Source of the DNA: Burkholderia sp. lig30 | GTDB taxonomy: Bacteria; Pseudomonadota; Gammaproteobacteria; Burkholderiales; Burkholderiaceae | DNA: 64,000 nucleotides | Assembly (NCBI RefSeq): GCF_000687455.2 | Contig: NZ_JGVW01000053.1 | Location: 1 to 64,000 of the forward strand | Direction of reading: 5' to 3' | Shown: piece by piece, positions 43,993-62,341 of the stretch | Layout of the letters: every line of letters starts with the position of its first letter | How positions within the stretch are numbered: the stretch's first letter is position 1 | Translations under genes and position numbers: made by a program | Notes under the pieces: model-generated | Databases searched by the model: none | Told to the model about the DNA's origin: nothing | What the model saw: the letters and a program-made list of their open reading frames with translations, nothing else

Positions 43993-44003
43993 CGCCGGTG
44001 CAT

Positions 44004-45137
44004 TCACCGTTCCGGCCGGGCCGGCAGCCGGAGCGCCGCCATGAAGCCACGCGCGGAATCGCGCATCAGCACCTGCCCGCGATGCCGCGCGGCCGTCGCG
44101 CGCACGAACGCCAGCCCAAGGCCGAAGCCGTCGCGCGGCAGCCCGCAGGACAGCGCAAGCCGGTCAAACGCCCCGGCCGCCGCCGCGCGCCGCGCCGGCG
44201 CGATGCCCGCTCCGGCGTCCTCGACGGCGATCAGCCACGCGCCGCCGTCGGCGCGCAGCGTGCAATGCACGTCCGAACGCGCCGGACCGTGCTTCAGCGC
44301 GTTGTCGATCAGGTTCGCGACCGCGCGCGTCAGCATCATGCGGTCGCCCGTCGTCACGCATTCCGCATCCGGCACCTGCGCGACCACCCGGCTGTCGAAA
44401 CAGGCGGCCTTCTCCCACAGCTGGTCCGCCGCATCGAACACGATTTCGTTGAGGCTCACGGCGTCGTGTGCGCACAGCTCCGATTGCGCGCGAGTCAGAT
44501 GGATGAAGCCGTCGGCGAGCGCCAGCGCCCGCCGCGCATGGCCGGCGATCCGCTCGAGCAGCGGCGGCATCTCGCCATGCTCGCTCCGGTAGGCGTTCAG
44601 CAATGCAAGAATCGACGTCTGCGGCAAACGCATGTCGTGCGACAGGAAATCGAGCGCTTCGTCGCGCTGACGCGACATCAGGTACGCGTTTGCGTGATAG
44701 CGGATACGCGCCGCCACCTCGATGGCGTCGGGCAGCGTGACGAGATAGTCGCTTGCGCCCGCGAGGAACGCCTCCCGCTTGATCGCCGGCGCGTCCTCCG
44801 CGGACAGCACGATGACCGGCACACGCGACGCCGCCGCGCCGGCGCGCCATGCGCGCACCAGGTCCAGCCCGTCGATGTCCGGCATCGCGAGATCCTGCAG
44901 GATCACCGCGGGCCGGACTTCGCGCGCCGCCGCCATTGCTCCGTGCGCGTCCGCGCAAACGTGCAGGTCGAGATCGTGCTCGGCGCGCAACGCGCGCCTG
45001 AGGATCTCCGCGACGAGAACCCGATCGCTCACCAGCAGCACCGGAATGCCGGATTCTGCGCCGTCAGCCGGTTCTTCAACGCAAGATTCATGCACGCACG
45101 ACGATCCTAAAACCGAATCTTTATTCGATTCTTTCAT
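44004..45137 (-). CDS. Hybrid response regulator-histidine kinase (REC then HATPase)
   Basis: A 377 aa soluble signalling protein in REC-HisKA-HATPase order. The receiver has acidic DAHGAMAAAREVRPAVILQD with phospho-Asp in ILQDLAMPDIDGLDLV and Lys-like switch residues later (IVLSAEDAPAIKREAFLAGA). The phospho-His is in LDFLSHDMRLPQTSILALL. The ATP-binding N and G boxes are VANLIDNALKHGP, VEDAGAGIAP and GFGLGLAFVRATAARHRG. No membrane segments, so it takes its input from other proteins through the receiver. No partner regulator is adjacent. Confidence 0.87.
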   Translation of the reverse strand: MKESNKDSVLGSSCVHESCVEEPADGAESGIPVLLVSDRVLVAEILRRALRAEHDLDLHVCADAHGAMAAAREVRPAVILQDLAMPDIDGLDLVRAWRAGAAASRVPVIVLSAEDAPAIKREAFLAGASDYLVTLPDAIEVAARIRYHANAYLMSRQRDEALDFLSHDMRLPQTSILALLNAYRSEHGEMPPLLERIAGHARRALALADGFIHLTRAQSELCAHDAVSLNEIVFDAADQLWEKAACFDSRVVAQVPDAECVTTGDRMMLTRAVANLIDNALKHGPARSDVHCTLRADGGAWLIAVEDAGAGIAPARRAAAAGAFDRLALSCGLPRDGFGLGLAFVRATAARHRGQVLMRDSARGFMAALRLPARPER

Positions 45138-45468
45138 GTTCGTTGTTTATCGGGTTAATCCGCCCGTCTCTCAGGTGGACGCAGATGCCGCCTGCCATCG
45201 GCGATACCGAGCGGCGGGCGCAGACCGCCCGCCACGCGGGATGCAGGCGCTTCCCGCCGGCGCGCCGTTTCTCGTTAACCGATTGCTCTCGATGAATATA
45301 ATCAAGCGATTCTAAATGAAAATATAAGACGACGCCCACACCGCTCCCATTTGATTTCGCCATGCATATAAATCGGCGGGAAAACGAAAAAGGATTCAGC
45401 GGAAATACTTGATTTGGAGTCGCCAACACCGGTGGACGAGACAGCGAACCAGAAGGCTCGTTTGGTGC
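45138..45468. other. Intergenic region between the hybrid kinase and the IS5 remnant
   Basis: A 331 bp gap with a lower-GC part (45285-45420: ATGAATATAATCAAGCG and neighbouring A/T runs). It may carry the kinase promoter. No gene or repeat is supported here. Confidence 0.55.
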
Positions 45469-45775
45469 ATGGAGAGAAGGAAAGTCAGCAACGCGTTGTG
45501 GGCGGCGCTGGAGCCGTCGGTTCCGCAATTTGTGCCGCCACCGAAAGGCGGGCGTCGCCGTTCAGTTGATGAGCGCGCGGCCCTGAACGGCATTCCGTAC
45601 ATGCTGCACACGGGGATTCCACGGGAGCACCTGGCGCGGGAGCAGGGAGTCCGCGGCGGCATTTGCGCGACGGGGAAACGGCCAGCGCACAGGAAACGTT
45701 GCACCGGCCATGTCAACGACGCCGCGTGAGCATGACCAGATCGACTGAAAACGGGCCAGCATCAATCGATGCTCG
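45469..45775 (+). pseudogene. Decayed IS5-family transposase fragment
   Basis: The first 65 codons read like the N-terminus of an IS5-family DDE transposase: MERRKVSNALWAALEPSVPQ, then VDERAALNGIPYMLHTGIPR with EHLAREQG. The frame then shifts. In the next frame LRDGETASAQETLHRPCQ and MTRSTENGPASIDA resemble the following part (LRDW...LH...DQIDW...ASIDA). No catalytic DDE residues remain. Several substitutions in invariant positions show it is an old remnant. Confidence 0.75.
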
Positions 45776-45877
45776 GGCTGGAGCAGCCTGTCGCGAATGG
45801 CGAGTCCGTTGCGACAGGCAGCGAACGCGCGCTGCAAATCACCCTGCTGCGTCAGGGGAGGCGAGCACGACTTCGCG

Positions 45878-46672
45878 TCAGGCCGCTTTGGGCGCGCGCG
45901 TACGCCGGCTGTCTGCGGGCGTTGCCGCGATTGCGCGAATGGCAACTTCCCTGGCTTCGTCCAGCCGCGAGGCTGCAAGAGAAACCAGCAGTTTGCTGTC
46001 TCGCTTGATCGCGGCCTTTTGCAGCTCGCGCCAGTCCTTCAACGATGCGCGAATCGATTGTGGCGCAGCCACGAATCCCAGCCGGACATAACGCAGCGTT
46101 CGCAATGAGATGGAGTGCAGGATATCGACCAGAAGCCGATTGCGGCACAGGTTGATCGTGGAGAAATTCAGAAGGAAGCTTTCGACAGCATAAGCGTCTG
46201 CCGACTCCTCGGCGGCCTTGGTCAGTTTAGGCATGTACTCGGCCAGCAACGCCTCGAGCTCGGCCGGGCTTTCGTGCGCCACCTGTTCCAGCATCGTCAG
46301 ATAAAGCACGCTGCGCACACGAAAGATGTCCCGAAGCTCGTTTTCGTCGGGCGCCGTGACGATCGCCCCGCGTCTCGCCTGAAACTCGATCAGGCGATCC
46401 CGCTCCAGTATGCGCATCGCTTCGCGCACTGGCGCACGGCTGACGTGCAGCACCTCGCTGATATCCTTCTCCAGCAAACGCTGCCCCGCTTGCACCAGGT
46501 CGAGCGTAATGACGCCGGCCAGCCGGACAGCGATCTGCTCGGCAATCGGCGCCGAGGCGTACGCCCATTCCTGCCCGCGCAGCACCGCCCGTTCGACCGC
46601 CAACATCAGTGAATTCCTGGGCGTAAGGAGCGCGGAGAGATCGGGAAGGTTTTGCGTTTTATTTCGGGCCAT
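45878..46672 (-). CDS. GntR family (FadR/FCD subfamily) transcriptional regulator
   Basis: A 264 aa regulator. The winged-helix domain has PIAEQIAVRLAGVITLDLVQ and AGQRLLEKDISEVLHVSRAP with the GntR block VREAMRILERDRLIEFQARRG. The C-terminal FCD ligand-binding domain contains ELRDIFRVRSVLYLTMLEQV and the expected metal-binding Asp/His region. A perfect -10 TATAAT (46721-46716, minus) with TTGTCG at -35 gives a good promoter, and TTGTCGA sites overlap both the -35 and the start region, suggesting autorepression. Likely targets are the neighbouring tauD and porin genes, which carry the same sites. Confidence 0.88.
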   Translation of the reverse strand: MARNKTQNLPDLSALLTPRNSLMLAVERAVLRGQEWAYASAPIAEQIAVRLAGVITLDLVQAGQRLLEKDISEVLHVSRAPVREAMRILERDRLIEFQARRGAIVTAPDENELRDIFRVRSVLYLTMLEQVAHESPAELEALLAEYMPKLTKAAEESADAYAVESFLLNFSTINLCRNRLLVDILHSISLRTLRYVRLGFVAAPQSIRASLKDWRELQKAAIKRDSKLLVSLAASRLDEAREVAIRAIAATPADSRRTRAPKAA

Positions 46673-46690
46673 AACGTGTCGCGAGCTCGG

Positions 46691-46707
46691 TTTTTGTCGA
46701 ATTTAAC
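46691..46707 (+). promoter_or_regulatory. Operator-like site A1 at the gntR transcription start
   Basis: TTTTTGTCGAATTTAAC, sharing TTGTCGA..TTAA with the sites by tauD and the porin. It lies at the predicted gntR start of transcription (about 46709) and is an inverted copy (TTTTTGTCGA) of site A2. Confidence 0.5.
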
Positions 46708-46736
46708 TCGTTCACATTATAGTCTCCGCGTTGTAC

Positions 46737-46750
46737 GGTCGACAAAAATT
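46737..46750 (-). promoter_or_regulatory. Operator-like site A2 over the gntR -35 box
   Basis: AATTTTTGTCGACC on the minus strand. It overlaps the -35 element TTGTCG of the gntR promoter, whose -10 TATAAT is 18 bp downstream. Together with A1 it brackets the promoter. Confidence 0.5.
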
Positions 46751-46875
46751 CAGGGCTGCCTTGTTCGGGCTCAACCTTGCCATGACCGGTTAAAACCGAT
46801 GCGACTCACCTGCGGCGGCCGGCCGAGCCCGATACCGCACGCCATCGGAAAAGCATCGCGCGGATGGGCAAGCCA

Positions 46876-47721
46876 TCAATACGGCGTATCGCCTTCGATA
46901 CCCGCTCGCTCCATCTTGCGCGGAGCCGGCCAATAATCCATGACCGCGTAATGCTGCGTTGACCGGTTGTCCCAGATCGCAACACTGTTCGGCTTCCAGC
47001 GGAAACGAACCTGATACTCGGGGATCGATGCCTGGCTTTGCAGGTAGTTCAGGAGAAGGCTCGCCCCTGGCGTCTTGTCCAGGCCGTAACGCACATTCTC
47101 GGCCGTATGGTAGTTGGCGAAATGCGTTGTGAAGCTCCCGACGTACAGGATCTTCTCGCCAGTCTCCGGGTGCGTCCGCACGACCGGGTGTTCCACCTCC
47201 GGATTCTGTGCCGCGAGCTTTCTTCGCTCGTCCAGATCCATGACCGCGCCGAACGAGTGCTCGATGCTGCTTTTTGCTCTCAATCCGGCGATGCGTTTCT
47301 TGATGTCTTCAGGCAGTTTCCTGTACGCCTCGACCATGTTGACCCAGATGGTGTCACCGCCGACCTCCGGACACTCGATGCAGCGCAATACGGCACCCAT
47401 GGAGGGTTTCGCCCGCCAAAGCCCGTCGGTGTGGTAGTTGTTTTCATAAGGGTTTTTCTCGTCCGATCGATAGATCCGCACGAGGCCCGGATGCTCCGGA
47501 TCGCTTCCCGCAACGGGATGATCTTCCAGCTTGCCGAAGCCGCTCGCAAAGGCGACATGCTCCTCTCGAGAGATATCCTGATCCCGGAAAAAGAGGACTC
47601 GGTGCTTAAGCAGCAGCGCCTTGATTTCTGCGAACAGCGACGCGTCCCTGGATGCCTCCCCCAAATTCACACCGAACACCTCGGCACCGATGCAAGCCGT
47701 CAATCTTTCTACTTTGATCAT
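46876..47721 (-). CDS. TauD/TfdA family Fe(II)/2-oxoglutarate-dependent dioxygenase
   Basis: A 281 aa non-heme iron oxygenase. Start motif VFGVNLGEASRDASLFAEI, then HRVLFFRDQDISREEHVAFA. The iron-binding HxD is in NNYHTDGLWRAKPS; the distal His is in NRSTQHYAVMDYWP and the 2-oxoglutarate Arg follows in APRKMERAGIEG. Family members hydroxylate sulfonates (taurine), aryloxyacetates (2,4-D) or other compounds; the substrate here is not readable. AGGAG precedes the ATG at 47721; the open frame continues upstream to 47751 without a better start. An operator-like site lies 134 bp upstream. Confidence 0.9.
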   Translation of the reverse strand: MIKVERLTACIGAEVFGVNLGEASRDASLFAEIKALLLKHRVLFFRDQDISREEHVAFASGFGKLEDHPVAGSDPEHPGLVRIYRSDEKNPYENNYHTDGLWRAKPSMGAVLRCIECPEVGGDTIWVNMVEAYRKLPEDIKKRIAGLRAKSSIEHSFGAVMDLDERRKLAAQNPEVEHPVVRTHPETGEKILYVGSFTTHFANYHTAENVRYGLDKTPGASLLLNYLQSQASIPEYQVRFRWKPNSVAIWDNRSTQHYAVMDYWPAPRKMERAGIEGDTPY

Positions 47722-48124
47722 GAGCGATATCTCCTGGTATTTGGCAGGCATTTCATCAAGTCACCACGATCCCTGTCAGGCGCCGCCGCTCTGCGAAACC
47801 GTGGAACATTGCTGCCTGTCCTTCTGCCTGACAAGATAGCACCCAGCTCAATTCTTGTCGACATTAATGTTGGATTCTCAGCCGCGGCAGGTCCGGAACG
47901 GCAATGGGCAGCAATGGCTGGAAGTCCGACTGACGGCACCCGTCCAATCTGGACTCCTATACTTGCAAGGTGGCGCGCATGAAACAGAATCGGATTTTCC
48001 CGGCCCGGTTTCGCTGCCGGGTTCGCCTTCACGACAATCAGCACTGAATTCGATATGCGATTCTTCGCATACGTCCGCCCAATGAACGCGCCCGCACCGC
48101 TGGCGGGCCGGATCGAATTGCAGA
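47722..48124. other. Intergenic region between the tauD and porin genes
   Basis: A 403 bp gap holding the promoter region of the dioxygenase gene and the end of the porin gene. The GTCGAC of the operator-like site at 47855-47869 can serve as a -35 for a TATCTT -10 at 47838-47833 (minus strand, 18 bp spacing). No gene is seen. Confidence 0.6.
47855..47869. promoter_or_regulatory. Operator-like site B in front of the dioxygenase gene
   Basis: TTGTCGACATTAATG, the best copy of the shared motif, 134 bp upstream of the dioxygenase ATG. It contains the palindrome TGTCGACA, the type of half-site pair used by GntR/FCD regulators. Confidence 0.6.
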
Positions 48125-49246
48125 TCAGAAGGTGTGGCGAATGCCTATCTCGAGGCCGACCTGATTCGACCCGTGGAACGGGGCCGCGGGAACCGCGGTA
48201 CCCGCGGAGACAGAATAAATGGCACCCTTGCCATTGTTTTTCATATACCCAGCCACCCCATACACCGCCGTTCGCTTGCTGAGGTTGTAGTTCGCCCTCA
48301 AAACACCAAGCGTGCCGTTTGCGTCGTCCCCGCTGTTGCCGATATGCGAAACCTGGGCATCAAACTGCCACACGCCGTATAGCAGGGAGGCGCCCAGATA
48401 TTCGATATCGGTCTTGGCCGATCGGATGTCGCCGCGAAGGAGCCGATGGATCCAGCCTACGCCGAAGCGCACCGGCCCGGTCGTAAGATGGGCGTTCAAT
48501 TGATAGCGGCGGTCGGTGTCTCCGGAGTGGGCAAACCCGACGCCCGGTGCGCCCGGGACGACGGAGATCGACGCTGAGCCCGGCCCGCCTCGCAACTCTT
48601 CGTACGTCGCGGCGACTCCCCAGTTATTCGCGTCATATTTCAGCATCGCGGACAGCCCCCGGCAGGCGAGGAAATCGTTTCCGGTCTGACCGGCGCAGTT
48701 CCCGGCAGCCGAGGCGTCCCGGCCAAACGAATAACTCGCCCCCACGGTCAGCCCTGAGAAGGTTCCCATATAGGCAACGGAGCTGTCGAAGCGATCCGCC
48801 AGCAGGGCACTGTCGAGCGACCCCACGCCGCCCATCCCCGCGGCCCCCATGATATTCGCGTCGATCATCCCCCACGTCTGCATGCTGTACTGTCGGCCAA
48901 ACGTGAGCTTTCCCCACGGGCCGCTCAAACCGACGTAGGCCTGCCGGCCAAACAAACGATTGGCCTGCAGCAACGTCCCGTTCGACGCGGAAAAGCCACT
49001 TTCCAGCGTGAAGATGGCCTTCAGGCCTCCGCCGAGGTCTTCTGCGCCTTTCAGCCCCCATCGTGACGGCGTGTCTCCGGCCCCGATGACGGGCATCCGG
49101 GCCAGTGATCCGCCGGTCGGCGTCGCGTGAGTAATGAACTCGATGCCGGTATCCACGACGCCGTACAAAATGACGGAGCTCTGCGCAAATGCCGGTGCCG
49201 ACACGGCGGTGGTCGTCAGTAACAACGCAAGTCCCGCTTTCTTCAT
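48125..49246 (-). CDS. Outer-membrane general porin (OmpC/Gram-negative porin family)
   Basis: A 373 aa porin with signal peptide MKKAGLALLLTTTAVSAPAF (then AQ, cleavage about residue 21). The mature start QSSVILYGVVDTGIEFITH, the second strand FTLESGFSASNGTLLQANRL, and LFGRQAYVGLSGPWGKLTFG with RQYSMQ are typical of Burkholderia and Neisseria-type porins. The C-terminus GLEIGIRHTF ends in Phe, as required for outer-membrane insertion. It forms trimeric 16-strand channels. Placed beside a dioxygenase and a GntR regulator, it may be the uptake pore for the same substrate. Two operator-like sites lie upstream (49626 and 49773). Confidence 0.92.
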   Translation of the reverse strand: MKKAGLALLLTTTAVSAPAFAQSSVILYGVVDTGIEFITHATPTGGSLARMPVIGAGDTPSRWGLKGAEDLGGGLKAIFTLESGFSASNGTLLQANRLFGRQAYVGLSGPWGKLTFGRQYSMQTWGMIDANIMGAAGMGGVGSLDSALLADRFDSSVAYMGTFSGLTVGASYSFGRDASAAGNCAGQTGNDFLACRGLSAMLKYDANNWGVAATYEELRGGPGSASISVVPGAPGVGFAHSGDTDRRYQLNAHLTTGPVRFGVGWIHRLLRGDIRSAKTDIEYLGASLLYGVWQFDAQVSHIGNSGDDANGTLGVLRANYNLSKRTAVYGVAGYMKNNGKGAIYSVSAGTAVPAAPFHGSNQVGLEIGIRHTF

Positions 49247-49625
49247 CTCGTCTCCTCTTGTCTTGAGTCAACGCCAATGGCGTTTCGCTAATCCCGTGCG
49301 TGAGGAGGCTGCCGGCAATCACGCTGACCCAAAACGGTCCGGCCTGACGCCCGCCAGTTCTCCGCAGCTTTGATACGTCGGTATCCAGGGCGATGGCAGT
49401 CAGTGCATCGAGCCCGATACGGCGTGACCGACGACCGCGCCTACGCGCCGTCGCGCAATGACGACAACACCTCGATACCCATGACTTTTCGCTTCACGGT
49501 GTCCCCTTGTCGCGCCAACCACCTGCGTGAGTCGATGAGCACCCGACGATTCGGCGGCCTCCTGTAACGCCCCTTCTGTCTGCTGCCCGAACACCGACGG
49601 CGCCCATCATCCTCCAGAAATATTG

Positions 49626-49640
49626 ATGTCGACATTAATA
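49626..49640. promoter_or_regulatory. Operator-like site C between porin and plus-strand genes
   Basis: ATGTCGACATTAATA, sharing GTCGACATTAAT with site B. It is 380 bp upstream of the porin ATG, with TATACT close downstream on the plus strand. Confidence 0.55.
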
Positions 49641-49772
49641 CTTATACTGAGTCGACCTGGCATGCATGAACGAACGTGGTTGGTTGGAGCGCACTTCGGG
49701 GCCTCGGCGGCCCCGCCTCGTGGAGTCAATGACCGTCTGCCTCGCCCGGCGACAGGCCGTCCACTTGCATTA

Positions 49773-49787
49773 TTGTCGACTTTAATG
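49773..49787. promoter_or_regulatory. Operator-like site D upstream of the quinone oxidoreductase gene set
   Basis: TTGTCGACTTTAATG, differing from site B at one base. It is followed by TATAGACC and TATACTT on the plus strand, so it probably sits in the promoter of the downstream plus-strand genes. Confidence 0.55.
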
Positions 49788-49867
49788 CAGTATAGACCTA
49801 TACTTGAAATTCCGACGGCCTCATCGCTGCCGCGTCCGGCGTGAAGTCAATGAATGGAGGAAATCCA

Positions 49868-50134
49868 ATGCTGTCGACACGGTTGGCAGCGAAGACATGG
49901 GGGAACACGCCTCATGCCGCTCGACGGCTTGCGGCGCGGATCGCCTCGGCGTTTGTGCCCAAGGCGCATCTCGCGCCGTTGACTTGCGAAGCACTTTGCT
50001 ATGGGTGCATGGCCGGCATTGTGATGACCATGCACGCGACGTGCGAAGCCGACACCCGCCGGTCCATGCGCAACCGAATGACGCATACGGGTCCGCGGGC
50101 TACTGTCATGAGCAGCAAAGTTCAAGGCATCTGA
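49868..50134 (+). CDS. Small hypothetical protein downstream of operator site D
   Basis: An 88 aa open frame whose ATG follows GGAGGAAATCCA, a near-perfect ribosome binding site. The sequence (MLSTRLAAKTWGNTPHAARR, later TCEALCYGCMAGIVMTMHAT) is basic and Cys/Met-containing but matches no family known to me. The promoter-like site D is 95 bp upstream. It may be a real small protein or a leader frame; confidence is low because no homologue was recognised. The next gap 50135-50281 has no gene. Confidence 0.35.
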   Translation: MLSTRLAAKTWGNTPHAARRLAARIASAFVPKAHLAPLTCEALCYGCMAGIVMTMHATCEADTRRSMRNRMTHTGPRATVMSSKVQGI

Positions 50135-50281
50135 AGTAAAGCAGGACATGGCGCGAGACGAGAGGATTCACTCGTCGGCATCGACACCCCTCTTGATTCG
50201 CTTGTTGCCGAGATCAAGGGTGAAGCAAGGGCTGGCGATCCGTACAAAAACTGTAGTAGTCCATATATAACTGGAGACGAT

Positions 50282-51262
50282 ATGGCGAAAGTCGTTAAAT
50301 TCCACGAAACCGGCGGCCCCGAGGTCCTTCGTTTTGAGGACGTCGACGTTGGAGAGCCGGGGCCGGGAGAGGTGCGCGTCCGCCACGTGGCGGTAGGGCT
50401 CAATTTTGCCGATACTTACTTCCGCGGAGGCACCTACACGGTTCCGCTCCCCAGCGGCCTTGGCAACGAGGCGGCAGGTGTGGTCGAGTCCGTCGGGGCC
50501 GGCGTCACCGATCTGGCGGTCGGCGACCGTGTGACCTACACGGGCTTCATCAACACGCTGGGCGCCTACAGCACCGAGCGGCTGATTGCTGCCGATCTTC
50601 TGATCAAGCTGCCTGACGCCATCAGCTGCGAGACCGCGGCGGCCATGACCATGCGGGGCTTGTCCGCCGCCTACCTGGTGCGCCGGATCTATCCTTTCAA
50701 GGCGGGCGACGCCGTGCTGCTTCATGCTGCAGCGGGCGGTGTGGGATTGATCGTTTCGCAATGGGCGAAACTGGTCGGGCTGACGGTGATCGGCACGGTG
50801 TCGACCGACGCCAAAGCTGAAGTCGCGCGCGCTCACGGTTGCGATCACACGATCAACTACAGTCATGAGGATGTGGCCACGCGCGTGCGCGAACTGACCG
50901 GCGGGGTGGGTGTATCCGTGGTCTTTGACAGCGTGGGCAAGGCCACTTTCATGTCGTCGCTCGATTCCCTCAAGCGTCGCGGCCTGATGGTCTGTGTCGG
51001 CACTGCATCCGGCAAGATCCCGCCGTTCGATCCGCAAATTCTGGCGCGCAAGGGCTCGCTGTACCTGACCCGCCCGGGCCTGGCCGACTACATCGCCGAT
51101 CCGGCCGAAAAGGCGGAACTGGTCGACGAGCTATTCGGCCATGTAGCGGCAGGCCGGATCCGCATCGAGATCAATCAACGGTATGAACTGCAGGACGCGG
51201 TCCAGGCACATCGAGACCTGGAGGCTCGAAAAACCACGGGCTCCTCCATTTTCGTGCTTTGA
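50282..51262 (+). CDS. NADPH:quinone oxidoreductase (zinc-free MDR, QorA-like)
   Basis: A 326 aa medium-chain reductase. The N-terminal fold begins VKFHETGGPEVLRFEDVDVG and has VGLNFADTYFRGG with the typical Asn/Asp of quinone reductases and no zinc ligands. The nucleotide motif is LLHAAAGGVGLIVSQWAKL (AAGGVG). The C-terminus ISRYELQDAVQAHRDLEARK-like region (RYELQDAVQAHRDLEARKTT) is standard. Family members carry out one- or two-electron reduction of quinones and enals with NADPH. GGAGACGAT lies before the start. A hydrolase gene follows after 257 bp. Confidence 0.9.
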   Translation: MAKVVKFHETGGPEVLRFEDVDVGEPGPGEVRVRHVAVGLNFADTYFRGGTYTVPLPSGLGNEAAGVVESVGAGVTDLAVGDRVTYTGFINTLGAYSTERLIAADLLIKLPDAISCETAAAMTMRGLSAAYLVRRIYPFKAGDAVLLHAAAGGVGLIVSQWAKLVGLTVIGTVSTDAKAEVARAHGCDHTINYSHEDVATRVRELTGGVGVSVVFDSVGKATFMSSLDSLKRRGLMVCVGTASGKIPPFDPQILARKGSLYLTRPGLADYIADPAEKAELVDELFGHVAAGRIRIEINQRYELQDAVQAHRDLEARKTTGSSIFVL

Positions 51263-51519
51263 GCGTTCCACTCGCGGGGAAACACGCGCCATCCGGCGCG
51301 TTTGCCCCGCGAGACCCGTCCGGCATCCCGGCACGTCGGGCCGGACACACTGCCGCAGTGGCCCTGCCGGCAGAGCGGCACGTCTTCGACGACAGGCTCT
51401 TGCCGCCAGATATCCCGGTTCCGCGAGCGCGGCGCAGCCGCGATGCGAAAGCCCTGCGCCATCTTGACGGAGTGCACGGCCATTCCCCCCCAATTGATAT
51501 TTCTCAGGTTCCCTGGCTC

Positions 51520-52080
51520 ATGACATCTTCTTCGTCAGCAACCGTATTGATCGTTCCCGGCCTTCGGGATCACGTCGAGGATCACTGGCAAACGATTCTT
51601 GCAAGCACACTGCCGAATGCGCGCGTGGTGCCGCCGCTGGAACACGACAAGCTGCGCTGCGCGGCGAGAGTCGAGGCGCTCGATCACGCACTCGCCAGTA
51701 TCGCCGGTCCGGTGGTGCTTGTATCGCACAGTGCCGGGGTGATAACAACCGTGCACTGGGCACAACATCGCAGGCGCGAAATAAAGGGCGCGTTGCTCGC
51801 GGCTCCGCCGGATTTCGATTCGCCGCTGCCGGACGGCTATCCGACGATGGATGTCTTGCGTCAGCAAGGTTGGTTACCGGTGCCACGGAGCCCGCTCCCG
51901 TTCCCGAGCATCGTGGCGGCCAGCACGAATGATCCGCTCGCGCGCATGGAACACGTCAGGGAACTGGCGAGCGCCTGGGGCAGCCGTTTGATTGACGTCG
52001 GCGCCGTCGGTCACCTCAACCCCGCCTCGGGGTTCGGTGAGTGGCCACGTGCGCTGGAATTCGTCAACGAACTCAGTTAA
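51520..52080 (+). CDS. RBBP9/YdeN-like alpha/beta hydrolase
   Basis: A 186 aa serine hydrolase. N-terminal TVLIVPGLRDHVEDHWQTIL is the YdeN/RBBP9 oxyanion region. The nucleophile Ser is in VLVSHSAGVITTVHW (SHSAG), and the acidic residue and His are in VAASTNDPLARMEHV and VGHLNPASGFGEWP. Length fits the family. Physiological substrates are not known for bacterial members. It ends 10 bp before the DsbA-like gene, so these two are an operon. Confidence 0.88.
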   Translation: MTSSSSATVLIVPGLRDHVEDHWQTILASTLPNARVVPPLEHDKLRCAARVEALDHALASIAGPVVLVSHSAGVITTVHWAQHRRREIKGALLAAPPDFDSPLPDGYPTMDVLRQQGWLPVPRSPLPFPSIVAASTNDPLARMEHVRELASAWGSRLIDVGAVGHLNPASGFGEWPRALEFVNELS

Positions 52081-52089
52081 GGAGCCAAC

Positions 52090-52866
52090 GTGGCCAGTCG
52101 TAGCATTCACTTCATGACATGCGAGAAAGAACGCGCTGCGCACGTCGCTCAAGTACCGGGACATCGCAAGACGGCGACGGCGCCAGTGGCCGATGCGCAC
52201 AAGCCTTTTCTGGGGATCCAGGTTTTCGTGGATTTCATCTGCCCGTGGTGCCTGATCGGCACGCGGCATCTGCATGCTGCCATCAAACGTTTAGCCGAGC
52301 TGAGGCCGGAGATCGAACCCAAAGTGGTGTGGCGCTCGGTTCAGCTATTGCCGGACACGCCCCTCTCAGGCGAGCCCTACCAGGCTTTCTACCTGGCACG
52401 CCTGGGTGGCGCCGAGGCGGTCGTGGCGAGAAGAGCACAGTTGCAGCAGGCCGGGCGCCCGGCCGGAATAACGTTCTCCTTCGACGATATCCCGTTGCTT
52501 CCGAACACGGCAGCGGCACATCGACTATTGGCGTACGCATGTACGCATGAGACTGATGAAAAGCAGGCCGCGTTGGTAGAACGGCTTCTGACCGCCTTTT
52601 TCGTCGACTGCGAGAACATCGGCGACCCAGCGGTGCTGAAGCGGCTTGGACTCGAGTGCGGGCTGAGCGACGACGGCATGAGCGAGCACGCCTGCACCAC
52701 CGGCGGTCGTGCCGGACCGGACGCGGATCCACGCCGGGCAGAATCCCGCTCCGTCAGCGGCGTCCCGTTCATGGTGTTCAACGGAGCGCGTTACCTTTCA
52801 GGAGCCTATCCCGCCGACGCCATAGTGGAAGTCATGCTCGATTCGATTCCAGCGAGGACGAAATGA
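52090..52866 (+). CDS. DsbA-family thiol oxidoreductase (FrnE-like)
   Basis: A 258 aa thioredoxin-fold protein. After a 35-residue N-terminal stretch, the active site is VDFICPWCLIGTRHL (CPWC). LLPNTAAAHRLLAYACTHET matches the conserved helical insertion block, and the cis-Pro loop is SVSGVPFMVFNGARYLSGAY. FrnE-like proteins are cytosolic disulfide or polyketide-related oxidoreductases and resemble 2-hydroxychromene-2-carboxylate isomerases. A GTG start was chosen because AAGGAG lies just before it; ATG at 52114 is the alternative. Confidence 0.85.
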   Translation: MASRSIHFMTCEKERAAHVAQVPGHRKTATAPVADAHKPFLGIQVFVDFICPWCLIGTRHLHAAIKRLAELRPEIEPKVVWRSVQLLPDTPLSGEPYQAFYLARLGGAEAVVARRAQLQQAGRPAGITFSFDDIPLLPNTAAAHRLLAYACTHETDEKQAALVERLLTAFFVDCENIGDPAVLKRLGLECGLSDDGMSEHACTTGGRAGPDADPRRAESRSVSGVPFMVFNGARYLSGAYPADAIVEVMLDSIPARTK

Positions 52867-53042
52867 CGGCCTCCCCATTCAGTGCGACAGATCGATACAC
52901 AGTGACGGAAACCGATCACGAACGAAAGACTGAAACACCGGCCACACGCACGCCCAGATCGAATTGGGCCTGGTCACCCGGTTCCGGACACTTCGACTGG
53001 ATGGACTGGCATACCCTCACGGCATACGCGAACACCCGATAG
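52863..53042 (+). CDS. Small hypothetical protein overlapping the DsbA-like gene
   Basis: A 59 aa open frame starting with ATGA inside the stop of the DsbA-like gene, an overlap typical of translationally coupled genes. The product is polar with many Thr/Arg and a Trp-rich C-terminal part (SNWAWSPGSGHFDWMDWHTL). No family recognised and no separate ribosome binding site is needed. It could also be a chance frame. Confidence 0.35.
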   Translation: MTASPFSATDRYTVTETDHERKTETPATRTPRSNWAWSPGSGHFDWMDWHTLTAYANTR

Positions 53043-53204
53043 TTCTTGCCGTAACAACACCTGCGATCGCAAGCCTCAATGGAATCGCATACATGCGCCG
53101 AGGCCGGTCGGAATCGGCAAAGCGACGCACAAACGACCGTGGCGCGCATTCCGGCGATGAGACCGATCGCCCAACACGCGCCATTCCGTGCCTTTTCCCG
53201 GTGC

Positions 53205-54779
53205 TTACGCCACTCCGGCACCGGCGTGATGCGAAACGTCCAGCCTGAACATCGAAACGGCGGCTTTCAGACCGTCCGCCTGGGACTCGAGCGAGCTGGC
53301 CGCTGCCGCGGCCTCTTCGACCAACGCCGCGTTTTTCTGCGTGGCTTCGTCCATCTGCGTCACGGCCTGGCTAACCTGGCCGATGCCCTTGCTCTGTTCC
53401 TGCGACGCCGTGGTGATTTCCCCCACGATGTCGGCCACGCGCCGAATCTCCTGAGTGATCTCGCGCATCTTCGTTCCGGCTTCCTGTACACGACCGGCGC
53501 CAGTCCGCACCCGCTCCACGGAATCGTGAATCAGCGCCTTGATTTCCTTGGCTGCCGCCGAAGAACGCTGTGCCAGCGAACGCACTTCAAACGCCACCAC
53601 CGCAAAACCCCGCCCTTGCTCGCCCGCCCGCGCCGCTTCGACGGCTGCATTCAACGCAAGGATATTGGTCTGGAAGGCGATGCCCTCGATGAGGCCGACA
53701 ATGTTCGCGATTCTGTCCGAACTGGCATTGATGCCTTCCATGGTTTCCACCGCGCGTGATGCCAAGGTACCGCCTTGCTCCGCCACGTCGGCGGCCTGCG
53801 CGGCGAGCTGGTTGACCTGACTTGCATTGTCGGCATTCCGGGTCACGGTAGAAGTCAGTTGCTCCATGCTGGACGCCGTTTCCTCTAACGAGGCGGCCTG
53901 CTCTTCCGTGCGTTGAGACAGGTCCTGGTTGCCCGCCACGATTTGATGGGTGGCGCTAACGATCGAATCGGTCGACATTCTGATGGCGCCGATCGTTTTC
54001 GCAAGTTGCTCCTGCATGCGCTTCATCGAGAACAGCAGGCTCGAGCGGTCACCCGGCGCCGTCTTCACCACGGCAGTCAGATCGTTGCCGGCAATGCGGT
54101 TGGCAATCTCGGCGGCGTAGGACGGTTCTCCGCCCAGCGAGCGGAAGATGCCACGGTTGAGCAGCACCACGACAACCGACAAGACGCCGGCCAATACCAT
54201 CAGAATCCGGAGGCTCTGATACAGCGACGAGCGGAATGCCGCATCGAGGTCATCGACGTAAAGCCCCGTCGTGAGAATCCAGTCCCATGGCTGATAGCGC
54301 ACGTTATAGGCAACTTTCGGGAACAGTCCGCTGGCTCCCGGCCTCGCGGCGCTATATGCGGTAAAGCCCTTTCCGTCGAGCTTGATGACAGCAAGCATAT
54401 CCCTGAAGACGTACACGCCGTTCGGATCCTTGTAGTCTCCTACACCCTTGCCGTTGAGCTCCGCTTTCGTCGGGTGCATCAGGACGACAGGCTGCGAATT
54501 GACGATCAGAAAATAGCCATCCTTTCCGTAACGCATGTTCCGGATGCTGTCCATTGCGCGCCGCTTCGCCTCCGCGACCGGCATCGAGCCGACTGCGGCC
54601 TGGTCGCCAAAGGTCTTGACGACACTCAACGCGAGCTCCGATGCGTGTTTCAGGTCCGCCTCGCGCTCGTTCAGCCGCATCTCTCTGGTCTGGTAAGCAT
54701 CGTAGATCGATATTCCGGCGAGACTGGACAGGCTCAGGATCAGCGGTAGCCAGAGCTTCTGGATAAAAGACAGCTTCAT
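53205..54779 (-). CDS. Methyl-accepting chemotaxis protein with sCache_2 sensor
   Basis: A 524 aa transmembrane chemoreceptor. An N-terminal helix ([20 protein letters not shown]) and a second helix ([20 protein letters not shown], about 190-210) flank a periplasmic single Cache domain with [20 protein letters not shown] and the [16 protein letters not shown] block. A HAMP-like stretch and a classic signalling hairpin follow, with [24 protein letters not shown] and methylation-type Glu/Gln pairs. No CheR-tethering pentapeptide is seen. The start at 54779 excludes an upstream in-frame extension to 55181. Ligands of sCache_2 receptors are often organic acids, which fits the catabolic neighbours. 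Confidence 0.92.
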
Positions 54780-55089
54780 ATGTTTGCGAACCCTCCGGAT
54801 CGATAGAAGGGAGCAGGCAATCGGCATGTCTGTCCGCCCCCCTTGCTGCACCTTGGCTTCGGTCTTCGGTTTCTCGACTCGCGTCTCCACGTCCGGCACC
54901 ATCACGCCCGATTCCTTCAGACGCATCGCCTCTGCAAGCGATTGGCTTGACCCGAATCGCGCTGCCCGAGGACTTTTCATTCGGCACCGCGGGTTGCCGA
55001 TTCGAGGCGTTCGATCAAGGGAGGCGTCCCCGGTTGTCGACCTCGCCGAACAATGCCCGGCAGTATCGACGCGACGGGTTTTCCCGCGC

Positions 55090-55117
55090 TTGACAATACA
55101 TGACACGGAATTATCAT
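55090..55117 (+). promoter_or_regulatory. Promoter of the AraC family regulator gene
   Basis: TTGACA (55090-55095) and TATCAT (55112-55117) with 16 bp spacing, 30 bp upstream of the ATG at 55147. The 367 bp gap 54780-55146 also holds the chemoreceptor promoter and no gene. Confidence 0.65.
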
Positions 55118-55146
55118 TCGGTGCCAGTCTTCTATTCAGTTCTCCG

Positions 55147-56157
55147 ATGTCTTCTCTTGTCCGCGCTGCGAGCCTGACCAACTACAGCGAAGTCGCGCGT
55201 GCAGCGGGACTGGACCCGGAGCGAATGCTCCGTGATGCGGGGTTGAGTCCGGATGTACTGCGCGATCCCGACTTCATGATTCCGGTCGAGCGTGTCGGGC
55301 AACTGCTCGCGACTTCCGCAGTCGCGTCAGGCAACGAGAGTTTCGGACTGTGCATGGCCGAATCGCGCCTCTTGTCCAACCTTGGGGCGGTCGGATTGCT
55401 GATTCGCGACCAGGCGACGTTGCGCGACTCGCTTGACATGCTGATGCGCTACCAGGCCTTGCTCAACGGTGCGCTTTCGCTGGCCGTCGAGGAGTGTGGC
55501 GATCTGGTCGTCATCCGTGAGGTGGTCATCGCCGGAAAGGCACATCAGCCCACGCGCCAAAGGGTCGAACTGGCGCTAGGGGTCATGGTGCGGTTGATAC
55601 GCCAGATTCTCAAGCCCGACTGGCAGCCGCGGCGCGTTTGCTTCGAGCACCCGGCGCCGCGCGACCTCAGTACGCACCATCGGTTTTTCGGCCCTTGCGT
55701 CGAGTTCGACTACGACTTCAACTGCATCATCTGCGCAAAAGCCGATCTCGATGCACGCAACCCGTCAGCGGACCCGGCGATGGTGCGCTACGCGCAGCAG
55801 TTGCTGGACACGTCGGTGATGTCGCAGCAGACGACCATGCTCGAGGATGTGCGGCGCGCGATCCTGCTGCTGTTGCCCAGCGGGCATTGCGGTGTTGAAC
55901 AGGTGGCCGAGCACATGGGCCTGGTATGCCGCACGGTCCAGCGCCGGCTGGCCGAACAGGGGCAGAGCTTCTCGTCGATCGTGAACGACCTCCGCAAGGA
56001 GCTCGCCACGCGCCATGTCATCGAGAGCGATCGTCCGTTGACCGAGGTGGCGACCCTGCTCGGATTTTCCGCGCCGAGCGCATTCTCGCGCTGGTATCAC
56101 ACGCAATTCGGTTGCAGTGCAAAGGATAGCCATGCCGCACACGGCAAAATGCACTGA
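55147..56157 (+). CDS. AraC family regulator with arabinose-binding-like N-terminal domain
   Basis: A 336 aa regulator. Residues 1-200 form an Arabinose_bd-type domain ([20 protein letters not shown], then [20 protein letters not shown]). The HTH domain is at the C-terminus with [20 protein letters not shown] then [20 protein letters not shown] and [20 protein letters not shown]. This OruR/AgmR-like subgroup often controls catabolic genes divergent from or downstream of it. An MFS/thiolase operon starts 790 bp downstream and is a likely target. Confidence 0.88.
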
Positions 56158-56945
56158 CACCAGGGCTTGCCTGCGCCGCCACTCGCCATCGCGCAGGGAG
56201 GCAACGTGCGCGCAGAACGACCGGTGAGCGACGCGAAGCACTGAGCGGCCGCATCACCGTCCATCACCGCGCCATGCTCGACTTCGCCTGCACGTCATCG
56301 GCGCGCTCGAGCACGCGCTGGCCGATCCGAATACCGCGGTGGAACCGGCGTTGACGCCGATCCGCCAGCGCATCCAGCTGCCCTGAACCATTCCTGCGCC
56401 GGAAGATCCAGGCACGAGCAGTTCGCCATTCCGACTTCCCTCATCAGACCATTGCGCGTTCCCGCCGTCCCGACACCGGACGAGCCCGATCCGGAGCGAG
56501 AGGCCATTTCGAGGATCGTCCCTGTCATGGCCGGGACATGACGAACCGTCGTTCCTCAACGGGTTTACGACGATTCGTAACACGTTGCTTCTGCGCGCCG
56601 GCGCGAGGGTCCCTGCGAGCATCGCAATTAATGTCGTCAAAAATAATTCCCGGTGCTATGCTGACGCCATTGTCTGTCGTCCGGAGTTTTTCGGCTGCAA
56701 CGGAGGCTCTGGTGCGATATGTCCATCGGCGCTTTTCCTCACAGCCACCACTGAAGTCCCCAGGATGTTTGAAACAGGTATCGAAGCCCAAAGCGCGCAC
56801 GGCGACACAAAGAAAGCGTCCGGCGCAGCTGGCGGCCAGCAGTAACCGCTGCCTGCCTTGGCGTGTGAGCCCTGCTTGACGGGGCCACACGACACCAGGC
56901 GGCACTAGTCACTACGATTTTCGTGAATCATTGGAGGAGACGGAA
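56158..56945. other. Intergenic region upstream of the MFS transporter operon
   Basis: A 788 bp gap with no intact gene. One frame around 56288-56386 ends with IGALEHALADPNTAVEPALT and a stop, which could be a gene remnant. An operator-like site lies at 56627. Base composition is mixed and somewhat lower in GC around 56620-56680. Confidence 0.5.
56627..56640 (-). promoter_or_regulatory. Operator-like site E upstream of the MFS operon
   Basis: On the minus strand TTGACGACATTAAT, one base different from TTGTCGACATTAAT of the gntR/tauD/porin sites. It lies about 305 bp upstream of the MFS start. Confidence 0.45.
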
Positions 56946-58241
56946 TTGAACCTGTATACGAGTGATGCCATGCCGGCCGATCCTGCCGCGGCGACAAATG
57001 GTGCCCGAGCTTATGCGTGGGTGGTATTTGCGTTGATGTTTTGCCTCTTGCTCTCCGACTACATGTCGCGGCAGGCGATCAATGCATTGTTTCCGATCCT
57101 GAAAGTGCAGTGGCAGATGTCCGACACGCAACTCGGCTCGATCAGCGGCGTGGTGCCGCTGGCAGTCGGCGTGCTGACCCTCCCGTTTTCCATCGTCGCG
57201 GACCGCTGGGGGCGCGTCAAAAGCATTGCACTCATGGCTGCGATGTGGAGTCTTGCCACGCTCGGGTGCGCCATGGCCAGCAGCTACCACGAGATGTTCA
57301 TCGCACGCATCTTCGTTGGTATCGGTGAGGCCGCCTACGGAAGCGTCGGCATCGCGATGCTCATGGGCATCTTTCCGAAGCATCTGCGGTCGACCATTGC
57401 CGGCGGGTTTACGTCTGCCGCCGCCTTCGGGTCCGTACTTGGCGTTTCCCTTTCCGGCATCATTGCAACGCACTTTGGCTGGCGCTGGTCGATGGGCCTG
57501 ATGGCGATCTTTGGTTTTGTGCTGGTGATCATTTATTACCTCGTCGTCACGGAAAAAAAGCTCGCCCGTGCGAACCCGGACAATGCAGGCGGAACGCCGG
57601 TGCGCGGCCAGGTGCAACTGTCGCCTCGGGCATTCTTGTCTGGCCTGTTCCCATCCCGCTCCGTCACGTGTGCGTACCTCGGCGGCGCCCTGCAGATCTT
57701 CATTCAGGGCACGCTCTTTGTGTGGCTGCCCAGCTACCTGAATCGCTGCTGGGGCATGCCTGTCAGCAAGGCGGCCGTTGTCGCGGCCGGCCTTGTGCTT
57801 GTCAGCGGTGTGGGCCAGCTCCTTTGCGGTGTATTGACCGACCGGATGAGCAGGAATTCGTCGGTTAATCGATGGAACATGGCCATTTGTTATTGCCTCT
57901 TGCTGGGCACCCTGCTGGAAATCGCGTTCCGCTTGCCGCCGGGCAATCTGCAACTCGCGTTCCTGGCGCCTGCCGTGTTCTTCCTGGCCAGTTCGTTCAG
58001 CACATGCGGTCCGCTCATTGCCGGCGCCACATCGCCATCTATCCATGGTTCGGCTTTCGCCACAATGGCGCTGTTCAACAATATATTGGGCCTTGCAGCC
58101 GGCCCGTTTCTCACCGGTGTGATAGCGGACGCAGTGGGTCTTCAAGTCGCGTTGCGCTGGCTTCCGGCCGCGGCCATTCTGCCCTTTGCCGCATACATCC
58201 TTGGCCGGTGGTTCTATGTAGCGGAAGGGCGACGCGGGTAA
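56946..58241 (+). CDS. Major facilitator superfamily transporter (organic anion type)
   Basis: A 431 aa permease with about twelve hydrophobic segments. The MFS signature after helix 2 reads FSIVADRWGRVKSIAL (GxxxDRxGRR type). Helix 1 begins YAWVVFALMFCLLLSDYMSR, helix 7 is CAYLGGALQIFIQGTLFVWL, and the second-half signature is GVLTDRMSRN. The style resembles the anion:cation symporter group that imports aromatic acids or hexuronates. Start is a TTG after GGAGGAGACGGAA; an ATG at 56970 is the alternative. It probably imports the substrate degraded by the thiolase-SDR-BKACE genes. Confidence 0.85.
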   Translation: MNLYTSDAMPADPAAATNGARAYAWVVFALMFCLLLSDYMSRQAINALFPILKVQWQMSDTQLGSISGVVPLAVGVLTLPFSIVADRWGRVKSIALMAAMWSLATLGCAMASSYHEMFIARIFVGIGEAAYGSVGIAMLMGIFPKHLRSTIAGGFTSAAAFGSVLGVSLSGIIATHFGWRWSMGLMAIFGFVLVIIYYLVVTEKKLARANPDNAGGTPVRGQVQLSPRAFLSGLFPSRSVTCAYLGGALQIFIQGTLFVWLPSYLNRCWGMPVSKAAVVAAGLVLVSGVGQLLCGVLTDRMSRNSSVNRWNMAICYCLLLGTLLEIAFRLPPGNLQLAFLAPAVFFLASSFSTCGPLIAGATSPSIHGSAFATMALFNNILGLAAGPFLTGVIADAVGLQVALRWLPAAAILPFAAYILGRWFYVAEGRRG

Positions 58242-58518
58242 GCGTGCTTTCGGGGTGGCGGACCGCATCGAACGGATGCCTTGTCATGTCCGTGTGCCGG
58301 CTGGTCCGCCTTGACGGGCCAGCCAAACCGCACCGGCACGCGAACCTGTACGTTTCGGCCGCGATCCGGCACGCGGTCGGCATGAAAAGCCGGAAGGTGA
58401 TTCCGGCCTTCGACCACGATCCGAATGCGGCGATTTTCAGCGCGGCTGCGTGTGGCCTCGAAGACGCTCTCCCTCCTCCGCAAGAATCAAGCCGGATCCT
58501 TCTCTTCAACCCCTTGTT

Positions 58519-58540
58519 CCGCTGATGAATTCATCAGCGG
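58519..58540. promoter_or_regulatory. 22 bp perfect palindrome upstream of the thiolase gene
   Basis: The half-site CCGCTGATGAA is followed directly by its reverse complement TTCATCAGCGG, 26 bp before the thiolase ATG. It may be a regulator operator or an RNA hairpin covering the leader. The rest of the gap 58242-58565 (324 bp) shows no supported gene. Confidence 0.65.
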
Positions 58541-58565
58541 ACTTTACTCATTCAGGAAAACCAAC

Positions 58566-59750: not shown

Positions 59751-59794
59751 GTCTGGCGCCCGGCACGGTACAAAAAACTGCATGGAGGATAACG

Positions 59795-60848: not shown

Positions 60849-61907
60849 TCAGGCCGGCTTGCGCAGGAACCCCTGGTTGCCACCGTTGCGATTGGGCGCA
60901 AAGCCATTGGCCTGAAGCGTCTCGTCCGCCGTGTCATAGAAGACCCCGATCTTCATGATTTCTCGCGCCTGTTTCGCTGTCGCAATGGGGCGGCCGAATT
61001 CGCCGGCGATACGCACCAGTTGCTTGATCTGTTCGACCGAGCTCATCTTGCCCGTGCGGGTCTGGTTCCAGAGCACATCCTCGATGCCGCACCGCACATG
61101 CAGGCCCAACGCGATACCGATCATGTTCACGGGCAGCACGTTGAGCACCGAGCTTTCCACCGTGACCACCGCGCCGTCCGGGACTGCACGCAGCATATTG
61201 GCCAGGTTGTAGATGTTCGCCTGGTCCATGCCGCCGCTGATCGCCACCCAGTTCATCACCAGCGGCCCCTTGTAGACGCCGCGGCGAATCATCCGCTCGA
61301 TCGTTTCGAAGCTGTTGATGTTGTAGACCTGGAACTCGCTCTGGATGCCGGCGGCCGACAGGCGTCGGATGTGCTCTTCGACCCAGCTGGGATTCGACGG
61401 CACGACCATGTCCTTGTAGGTTGCGTACAGGTGCGGGAATCCCCGCGAAACACCGTTGAAGTCATCCAGACCGGCATGCTCCGTCACGTTCATCTGCGTC
61501 GTGTTGACGGTCACCGTCACCTGGTCGGGCTTCGGATCGAGTTCGGCCAGCATGTGCCGGGTGTCGTCGCTCAGCCACTTGGCGGCGTCGCCCTCCGATT
61601 CGGGCGCGAAGCTGATGGAGCCGCCCACCTGGATGATCATTTCCGGCACGCGGGCACGCACCCCGGCGATCAGCTCGTTGAACATGGACAAGCGCTTGCT
61701 GCCCTTGCCGTCGGCTTCGCGCACATGCAGATGCAGCACCGTGGCGCCGGCTTCGTAGCAATCCACCGCCTTCTGGATCTGCTCCTCCATCGTGATGGGG
61801 ATGTCTTCCGGGAAGTCCGACGGAATCCAGCCCGGCGCATAGGGGGCGGCCGTGATGACCAGGGGCTGCTGGTTCTCGGGATACAGGTGGCCGTCGAGGA
61901 AGTTCAT
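60849..61907 (-). CDS. BKACE family beta-keto acid cleavage enzyme (DUF849)
   Basis: A 352 aa zinc-dependent Claisen-type lyase of the beta-keto acid cleavage (DUF849, Kce-like) family. These enzymes condense a beta-keto acid with acetyl-CoA and split it into acetoacetate and a CoA ester. Visible blocks are AVDCYEAGATVLHLHVREAD (metal-binding His), IIQVGGSISFAPESEG, LYATYKDMVVPSNPSW and IGIALGLHVRCGIEDVLWNQ. It is longer than the 270-310 aa of most members. GGAGACGCACCATC precedes the ATG. The acetoacetate could feed the nearby thiolase. Confidence 0.88.
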   Translation of the reverse strand: MNFLDGHLYPENQQPLVITAAPYAPGWIPSDFPEDIPITMEEQIQKAVDCYEAGATVLHLHVREADGKGSKRLSMFNELIAGVRARVPEMIIQVGGSISFAPESEGDAAKWLSDDTRHMLAELDPKPDQVTVTVNTTQMNVTEHAGLDDFNGVSRGFPHLYATYKDMVVPSNPSWVEEHIRRLSAAGIQSEFQVYNINSFETIERMIRRGVYKGPLVMNWVAISGGMDQANIYNLANMLRAVPDGAVVTVESSVLNVLPVNMIGIALGLHVRCGIEDVLWNQTRTGKMSSVEQIKQLVRIAGEFGRPIATAKQAREIMKIGVFYDTADETLQANGFAPNRNGGNQGFLRKPA

Positions 61908-62341
61908 GATGGTGCGTCTCCAGGGTGAGAGGTGAATAGTTGAAATGTCGCACCGGCACATCATCCGGATCGCCGTGCAGCCATTGCGGTCCGCAGCGCA
62001 CGGTTCAAATGATCGGAGTCCGTGATATTCCGGCCGCAAAGCGCTGTCGATGAAGGACGTGCAGCGCTTCGCGGAACGGTTGATGTCCAGGTATCCGGGG
62101 CGACGAATGCATCATCCTGCCTTGCCCCCCTTCACGCTTTACATTGGATGTCTTGAGCTTGACTTTTCATGACAACAGCACAGCTCTGTTCATCGAGCGA
62201 GCGTCAAGGCGATGCTGGCTCATGGCGTCACGCGCGAAGTGGCAGCCTGAACGTCGGCAGAGGCTGCGTGCGCTTCACGGCACCCGCGTGCTGGCCATCC
62301 TTGAACGGATGCGGGTCACGCATCCGTCGTCGGTCATGCCA

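Follow-up and report, generated by a model that had tools for sequence, protein, structure and literature searches.

The 64,000-nucleotide stretch of Burkholderia sp. lig30 analysed here (contig NZ_JGVW01000053.1, positions 1 to 64,000, hereafter the window) contains the genes of a GntR/FCD regulator (gntR), a TauD/TfdA-family dioxygenase, a Gram-negative porin, a quinone reductase (qor) and an MFS transporter, together with six copies of a palindrome, O1 to O6, in the DNA upstream of them (Table 1). These copies very probably serve as operators for the GntR protein of FadR/FCD type whose gene lies at the same locus and whose predicted binding would control a six-site regulon.

Table 1. Genes, predicted promoter elements and operators in the window (PWM, position weight matrix).
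Feature	Position	Strand	Remarks
gntR, GntR/FCD regulator	45878..46672	-	264 aa; presumed repressor
Operator O1, gntR-proximal, weak	46690..46707		just 3' of predicted gntR transcription start; PWM rank 5, 15.9 bits
Predicted gntR -10 TATAAT	46716..46721	-	-35 TTGTCG 46740-46745 inside O2, spacer 18
Operator O2, gntR-distal, weak	46732..46749		overlaps predicted gntR -35; PWM rank 6, 11.4 bits
TauD/TfdA-family Fe(II)/2-oxoglutarate dioxygenase	46876..47751	-	Pfam TauD PF02668, 214.7 bits
Operator O3, dioxygenase promoter	47851..47868		-35 TCGACA 47856-47861, spacer 17, -10 TATCTT 47833-47838 (minus strand); PWM 30.5 bits
Gram-negative porin	48125..49246	-	Pfam Porin_4, 166.1 bits
Operator O4, porin side of divergent region	49622..49639		candidate porin -10 GATGAT 49606-49611 (poor); right-hand flank ACTTATACTGAG conserved; PWM 31.7 bits, window's best
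Operator O5, qor side	49769..49786		-35 TCGACT 49776-49781, spacer 17, -10 TATACT 49799-49804 (plus strand); PWM 29.3 bits
Candidate small protein gene	49868..50134	+	88 aa; first frame after O5; coding uncertain
qor, NADPH:quinone reductase family	50282..51262	+	NCBIfam PRK10754, 363.9 bits, cut-off 348 passed
Operator O6, upstream of MFS gene	56627..56644		-35 TCGTCA 56634-56639, spacer 17, -10 TATGCT 56657-56662 (plus strand); PWM 27.8 bits
MFS transporter	56931..58241	+	start codon uncertain; Pfam MFS_1, 145.8 bits
BKACE (DUF849-type) enzyme	60849..62039	-	396 aa; weak similarity to solved members (2y7d, 122.6 bits)
lldD-like gene behind glutarate dioxygenase (csiD/GlaH)	62590-63873 and G000:C53 63914-64897 (L099:3915-4898)	-	

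An earlier note on this DNA had pointed to near-identical 14-mers, and the three that it located are exact at their positions (TTGTCGACATTAAT at 47855, ATGTCGACATTAAT at 49626 and TTGTCGACTTTAAT at 49773). Allowing up to three mismatches, TTGTCGACATTAAT occurs 10 times in the window, where 1.58 matches would be expected; 0 of 100 shuffles reached that number. In the whole genome (5,508,180 bases), 41 matches to WTGTCGACWTTAAT were found with up to two mismatches: the only three exact ones are the three noted sites, the three with one mismatch lie at 49622 and 56627 (minus strand) and at C60:61682, and of the 35 with two mismatches 3 are inside the window and 32 elsewhere. An equal frequency of the 14-mer elsewhere, which would have spoken against a local regulon, is thus not observed at zero or one mismatch. 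The position C60:61682, considered as a seventh target, was discarded as it falls inside a LysR reading frame. The bare core GTCGAC (65 copies in the window vs. 37 expected) is uninformative alone.

The conserved unit is, rather than the 14-mer, the 18-bp palindrome ATTWWTGTCGACAWWAAT with the centre TGT-CG-ACA. Of its nine base pairs, eight are palindromic at 49622, seven at both 47851 and 49769 and six at 56627, while the two gntR sites are weak because only 5/9 and 4/9 are. In the lig30 genome four 18-mers WTTWWTGTCGACAWWAAW occur with at most one mismatch, all of them in the window, and the reversed control gave none; a further one, with three mismatches, is at C53:72633 (L099:12634). The five sites of the earlier note are confirmed, and a sixth, O6 at the MFS gene, had been overlooked.

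The same palindrome recurs around the regulator in other bacteria. A search with the GntR protein gave 33 loci (L031-L063), of which L063 (29% identity) was excluded and 32 were used; they come from Paraburkholderia, Caballeronia, Cupriavidus, Pandoraea, Verticiella, Hydrogenophaga, Burkholderia (B. guangdongensis), a Burkholderiaceae isolate and metagenome-assembled genomes, and their sites are partly dependent, since L039 and L048 share part of a contig and some of the species are closely related. These loci (595,559 bases) hold 91 distinct sites within three mismatches of ATTWWTGTCGACAWWAAT, compared with 0-1 in five Markov shuffle sets. When a matrix built from the 91 sites was used to scan the window, the six best positions were, in decreasing order, O4, O3, O5, O6, O1 and O2 (Table 1). 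Over 20 Markov shuffles the maxima at TC- or CG-centred positions ranged from 4.7 to 19.9 bits, and the best four sites are clear of this range.

The distribution of the palindrome also follows that of the regulator. An orthologue of the GntR protein (E < 1e-70) was found in 14 of 299 family genomes, own genome included, the next best genome being at 2.7e-20. At least one 18-mer with at most one mismatch is present in 14/14 genomes with the orthologue and in 31/285 without it (Fisher 4e-13, kinship ignored), and at least two in 12/14 and 4/285, respectively (Fisher 2e-16, kinship again ignored). Within the genus of the window only 2 of 41 genomes, its own and that of B. guangdongensis, have the orthologue. 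The G+C content is 61-64% at 44000-64000 and 66-71% in 0-32000. From this lower G+C content and the rarity of the orthologue in the genus, the cluster was possibly acquired.

The position of the palindrome relative to promoter elements is almost constant. Among 90 palindromes from the relatives, 61 have, on one strand, a TANNNT box (at least 4/6 to TATAAT) 16-18 bp after TCGACA, and in 46 of them the distance is 17 bp; shuffling the flanks gave a mean of 4.2 and a maximum of 12 in 300 (kinship ignored). This register was first noticed with a stricter -10 box. Because of it the operator appears to contain the -35 element, and the predicted starts belong to sigma-70-type promoters with the operator over the -35. 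In alignments of the upstream regions (17 relatives for gntR, 8 for tauD, 5 for porin/qor and 7 for MFS, mostly picked for having a site), operators and -10 boxes are the main conserved islands. At the dioxygenase these are O3 and TGCTATCTTG (or a near form) in the 8 relatives; on the qor side TCGACA-17-TACACT stands at O5 in 5/5, and at O6 ATTAATGTCG(T/C)CAAAAATAA is found in all 7, which were chosen for a site at that place. O4 is kept in 5/5 aligned relatives. Its right flank (49640-49655) is conserved as well, as ACTTATACTGAGTCGA in four of the five and as ACTTATACTGAG in the fifth, and includes a TATA-like box and, about 10 nt off, a half-site-like TCGACTC; additional half-sites at a distance of 7-12 nt from the palindromes of GntR-family regulators have been described (Suvorova et al., PMC4494728, in the available part of the text, as for the other papers cited below). 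A leader peptide after O4, suggested by ATGATG behind a ribosome-binding site, was rejected: ATGATC stands there in 2/6 loci and the frames differ.

At gntR itself two TTTTTGTCGA copies exist, as the earlier note had it, and the distal one (O2) overlaps the predicted -35; the proximal one (O1), said there to overlap the start, lies 3' of the predicted transcription start and ahead of the start codon, with its centre 26.5 bp before the ATG. O1 reads (G/A)TTAAATTCGAC(A/G)AAAA at the corresponding position in 6/17 aligned relatives and has weaker forms in others, the -10 region reads GACTATAAT in 8/17, and several relatives have stronger copies of O2 at the same place, which is lost in L038. The distances within operator pairs in the window are 42 bp (4.0 turns) and 147 bp (14.0 turns). 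Helical phasing was nevertheless dismissed, the pairs of the relatives being 44, 68, 73, 84, 85, 110, 113, 144 and 150 bp apart; as not all of these are whole turns, no looping is claimed.

Which genes the palindrome serves was judged from copies with at least 50% identity for which the locus included 600 bp upstream, a site of up to three mismatches being sought within those 600 bp. In the relatives' loci it was found upstream of gntR in 14/32 copies, of tauD in 14/27, of the porin in 7/9, of the MFS gene in 14/22, of BKACE in 7/24, of qor in 4/21 and of a serine hydrolase in 2/17. The separate counts for BKACE and qor are lowered because in many relatives one lies behind the other. No site was found by this measure at araC (0/12), bktB (0/6), SDR (0/3), lldD (0/3), dsbA (0/1) and MCP (0/1), nor in 700 bp upstream of csiD (0/8 copies, own genome included, the ninth copy, in L047, being too short). 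Altogether, the genes counted explain 65 of the 92 sites. The regulon of gntR, dioxygenase, porin and qor proposed in the earlier note, and its predicted control by the GntR protein, are thus supported by conserved orthologous promoters, by co-occurrence with the regulator and by the position relative to -35 and -10; the MFS transporter has to be added to it. BKACE is away from any operator in the window and yet behind one in several relatives. A BKACE remnant between O5 and qor was looked for, and no match was obtained at E up to 1. In the porin slot two porin types stand behind the same operator: in seven loci (L031-L033, L035, L036, L044 and L046) the porin is different, with 27-29% identity to that of the window, and each has a site upstream, as if the operator had stayed while the porin was exchanged.

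The GntR protein combines an N-terminal GntR winged helix with a C-terminal FCD domain, as in FadR/FCD regulators, and scores below every NCBIfam equivalog cut-off (21.6 bits for the UxuR model, cut-off 442). No CsiR model is in its NCBIfam match list, and the library presumably holds one. The Asp/Asn and His metal ligands of FCD domains were not found: the equivalent positions, placed via the published ligand spacing with the register set by eye and no residue-level structural alignment, are V163, L167, W214 and R236, of which W214 and R236 do not vary across the window protein and 19 aligned relatives. The effector domain thus seems to be without the usual FCD metal ligands. The operator consensus given for the FadR subfamily is NyGTM-N0-1-KACNy (PMC4494728), and the TGT-CG-ACA palindrome of the window and of the 91 relatives' sites fits its NyGT...ACNy frame. 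The earlier description of the sites as GntR/FCD-type palindromes therefore stands, with the GT/AC spacing of the 2-nt variant of the consensus instead of the commoner 3-nt one.

In the mechanism that we favor, a GntR dimer would occupy the 18-bp palindrome at six places and thereby regulate gntR, the genes of the TauD-family dioxygenase, the porin and the MFS transporter, and the transcript of qor, which may include a small gene ahead of it. Since most of these operators enclose the predicted -35 hexamer (TCGACA, with the -10 following after 16-18 bp), sigma-70 RNA polymerase should be kept off the promoter while the dimer is bound; gntR has an additional, weaker site shortly past its predicted transcription start. 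Release of the repressor would be brought about by a catabolic compound. The sulfonate or aryl acid thought of earlier as inducer is unsupported: in the dioxygenase the acid-binding His/Arg of TauD are kept and the taurine-specific residues are not, and the metal ligands of the FCD domain seem absent.

The sign of the regulation is one point on which a different reading was weighed. The GntR protein could be an activator at these sites, or need a ligand to bind them: CitO is reported to be an FCD protein that binds and induces its targets with citrate, the family, in the sources available, holding both signs, and with a pocket that seems to lack the usual metal ligands the ligand logic cannot be transferred from relatives. 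The -35 overlap in most promoters and the second site after the gntR start have instead the geometry of occlusion, and this different reading is considered improbable. It is more improbable still that the sites belong to another regulator of the cluster, either the AraC-family protein whose gene is within 54784-56157 or the LysR protein whose gene neighbours csiD, with gntR as one of its targets. Many of the loci with gntR also contain araC (12 copies could be assessed), and co-occurrence at the level of the cluster is compatible with such a regulator; on the other hand, the operator is upstream of none of these 12 copies, against 14/32 for gntR, and of none of the eight copies of csiD, which lies opposite the LysR gene. 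AraC proteins usually bind direct repeats, which differ from the palindromes found here. The even-centred GT-CG-AC palindromes fit the FadR-subfamily rule (PMC4494728) and not the T-N11-A rule quoted for LysR. Finally, the motif overlaps in part with the -35 box, and the window holds more copies of GTCGAC than expected, as might be foreseen if the motif were due to chance, to composition or merely to shared promoter sequence. A -35 box leaves unexplained the far flanks ATT/AAT, palindromic and conserved on both sides, and this explanation is hardly credible in view of the uniqueness of the motif in the whole genome, the empty reversed control and the footprints in several genera.

Several observations weigh against control of these genes by the GntR protein through the six sites. 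Many copies have no site within 600 bp (18/32 for gntR, 13/27 for tauD and 8/22 for MFS), partly because they are inside operons or because their sites are beyond the cut of three mismatches. The two gntR sites score within the range of the shuffles; they rest on position and conservation, not on score alone. The porin -10, 15 bp after TCGACA, is poor. The choice of the 18-mer consensus for collecting sites was made with the window and the relatives in view, which leaves the matrix test not entirely blind, and the matrix, the co-occurrence and the promoter-register counts all treat close relatives as if they were independent. A match is also present in the 31 genomes mentioned above that have no orthologue and, as the cluster travels as a whole, co-occurrence alone cannot separate the GntR protein from another regulator of the cluster. 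For B. guangdongensis, the single site in the sequence around gntR (L038) is a weak one at gntR itself, and tauD and MFS lack any; an operator with one mismatch does, however, immediately precede the porin gene, which is found on a different contig (L095).

Between O5 and qor there is possibly a conserved small gene, as predicted from the frame 49868-50134. Its core is ...HAARR(L/I)AAR...EALCYGCMAGI, a ribosome-binding site precedes it in 5/5 relatives, and its mean dN/dS is 0.60 vs. 0.98 and 0.89 in the other frames, though not lower in every pair. Strong matches were found in 5 of 299 genomes, all GntR-positive (by coordinates, G000, G040 and G251 are genomes of the query rows), with internal stops in two of the five; no Pfam match was obtained for the frame. 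Two further hypothetical genes, small and adjacent (L033:7853-8374 and 8295-8669), are conserved together near the regulon, with homologues in 9/32 loci; they have no match in the window gap 47752-48124 and none in Pfam or NCBIfam.

As to the pathway, the dioxygenase keeps H107, D109, H267, T134 and R278, which we take to be its Fe(II) and 2-oxoglutarate residues, and therefore belongs to the TauD/TfdA superfamily. It is not a TauD proper: it reaches 231.2 bits with the taurine dioxygenase equivalog, missing the cut-off of 313, and is changed at four positions near taurine, according to a list of contact positions that we assume to be correct. At the very end of the window starts csiD, which NCBIfam identifies as a glutarate dioxygenase (454.5 bits, cut-off 333); lldD comes next, and a LysR gene lies opposite. 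In some relatives an L-2-hydroxyglutarate oxidase is found where lldD stands, and LldD may be a non-orthologous replacement of it. In loci of at most ~21 kb, at least 8 of 32 have csiD, at least 5 the L-2-hydroxyglutarate oxidase and at least 8 a class III CoA-transferase. Since the csiD-lldD glutarate-hydroxylation module adjoins the cluster, the pathway may feed glutarate, though csiD and lldD are without the operator. A more detailed proposal, which we regard as improbable, is that an imported acid is degraded by the regulon through CoA-free beta-oxidation. The acid would be hydroxylated by the TauD-family enzyme, and a dehydrogenase would make the beta-keto acid, which BKACE and acetyl-CoA would split into acetoacetate and a shortened acyl-CoA, e.g., glutaryl-CoA; the csiD-lldD module would take glutarate to 2-oxoglutarate, to be consumed by both dioxygenases. 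In the same proposal the metal-less FCD repressor would read the ATT/AAT ends of the operator, itself the -35 box, with its invariant basic N-terminal arm. BKACE and an SDR dehydrogenase act in the deoxyribonate pathway of related bacteria (PMC6365646), which could serve as a precedent for the dehydrogenase and BKACE and not for the dioxygenase.

The regulon would join loosely annotated genes ("taurine dioxygenase," porin, quinone reductase and MFS transporter) into one co-regulated uptake-and-breakdown unit, which occurs in several Burkholderiaceae and related genera. It offers a ready operator for regulator tests and substrate screening, and a clean natural case of an operator that coincides with a predicted -35 element at a nearly fixed register.

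Among known systems, E. coli TauD (1gqw) shares with the dioxygenase described here the Fe ligands, the 2-oxoglutarate anchors and the equivalents of His70 and Arg270, and differs from it by Tyr73 to Ala, Asp94 to Tyr, Asn95 to Glu and Val102 to Gly; the closest solved chain is 5vn6 (420.5 bits), named taurine dioxygenase. CsiR and LhgR are GntR regulators of csiD/lhgO genes (PMC6667623, PMC8206213), and such genes adjoin the cluster; the LhgR sites TTGTCTGACAA have a 3-nt spacing vs. 2 nt here, and a glutarate regulator of the CsiR/LhgR type was ruled out, the operator being at 0/8 csiD and 0/3 lldD copies. With the FadR subfamily (PMC4494728) the operator has in common the consensus with 2-nt spacing and an A/T-rich palindrome, whereas the extended ATT/AAT ends and the invariant N-terminal arm are not described in the part of that paper available. 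Atu1419 of Agrobacterium fabrum, a VanR-subgroup FCD repressor (PMC7797058), is similar in its GntR/FCD fold, in autoregulation (predicted here), in several operators over promoter elements of a catabolic cluster and in an even-centred palindrome, ATGTATACAT, built like ATGTCGACAT here. Its palindrome is, however, centred on AT, where the one here has CG and is longer, being conserved over 18 bp; Atu1419 also has zinc in its effector domain, where V163, L167, W214 and R236 appear to stand at the ligand positions here, and other target genes. In literature searches the regulon, its motif and its parts were not found; what emerges is a new and well-supported regulon governed by a switch of a familiar type.

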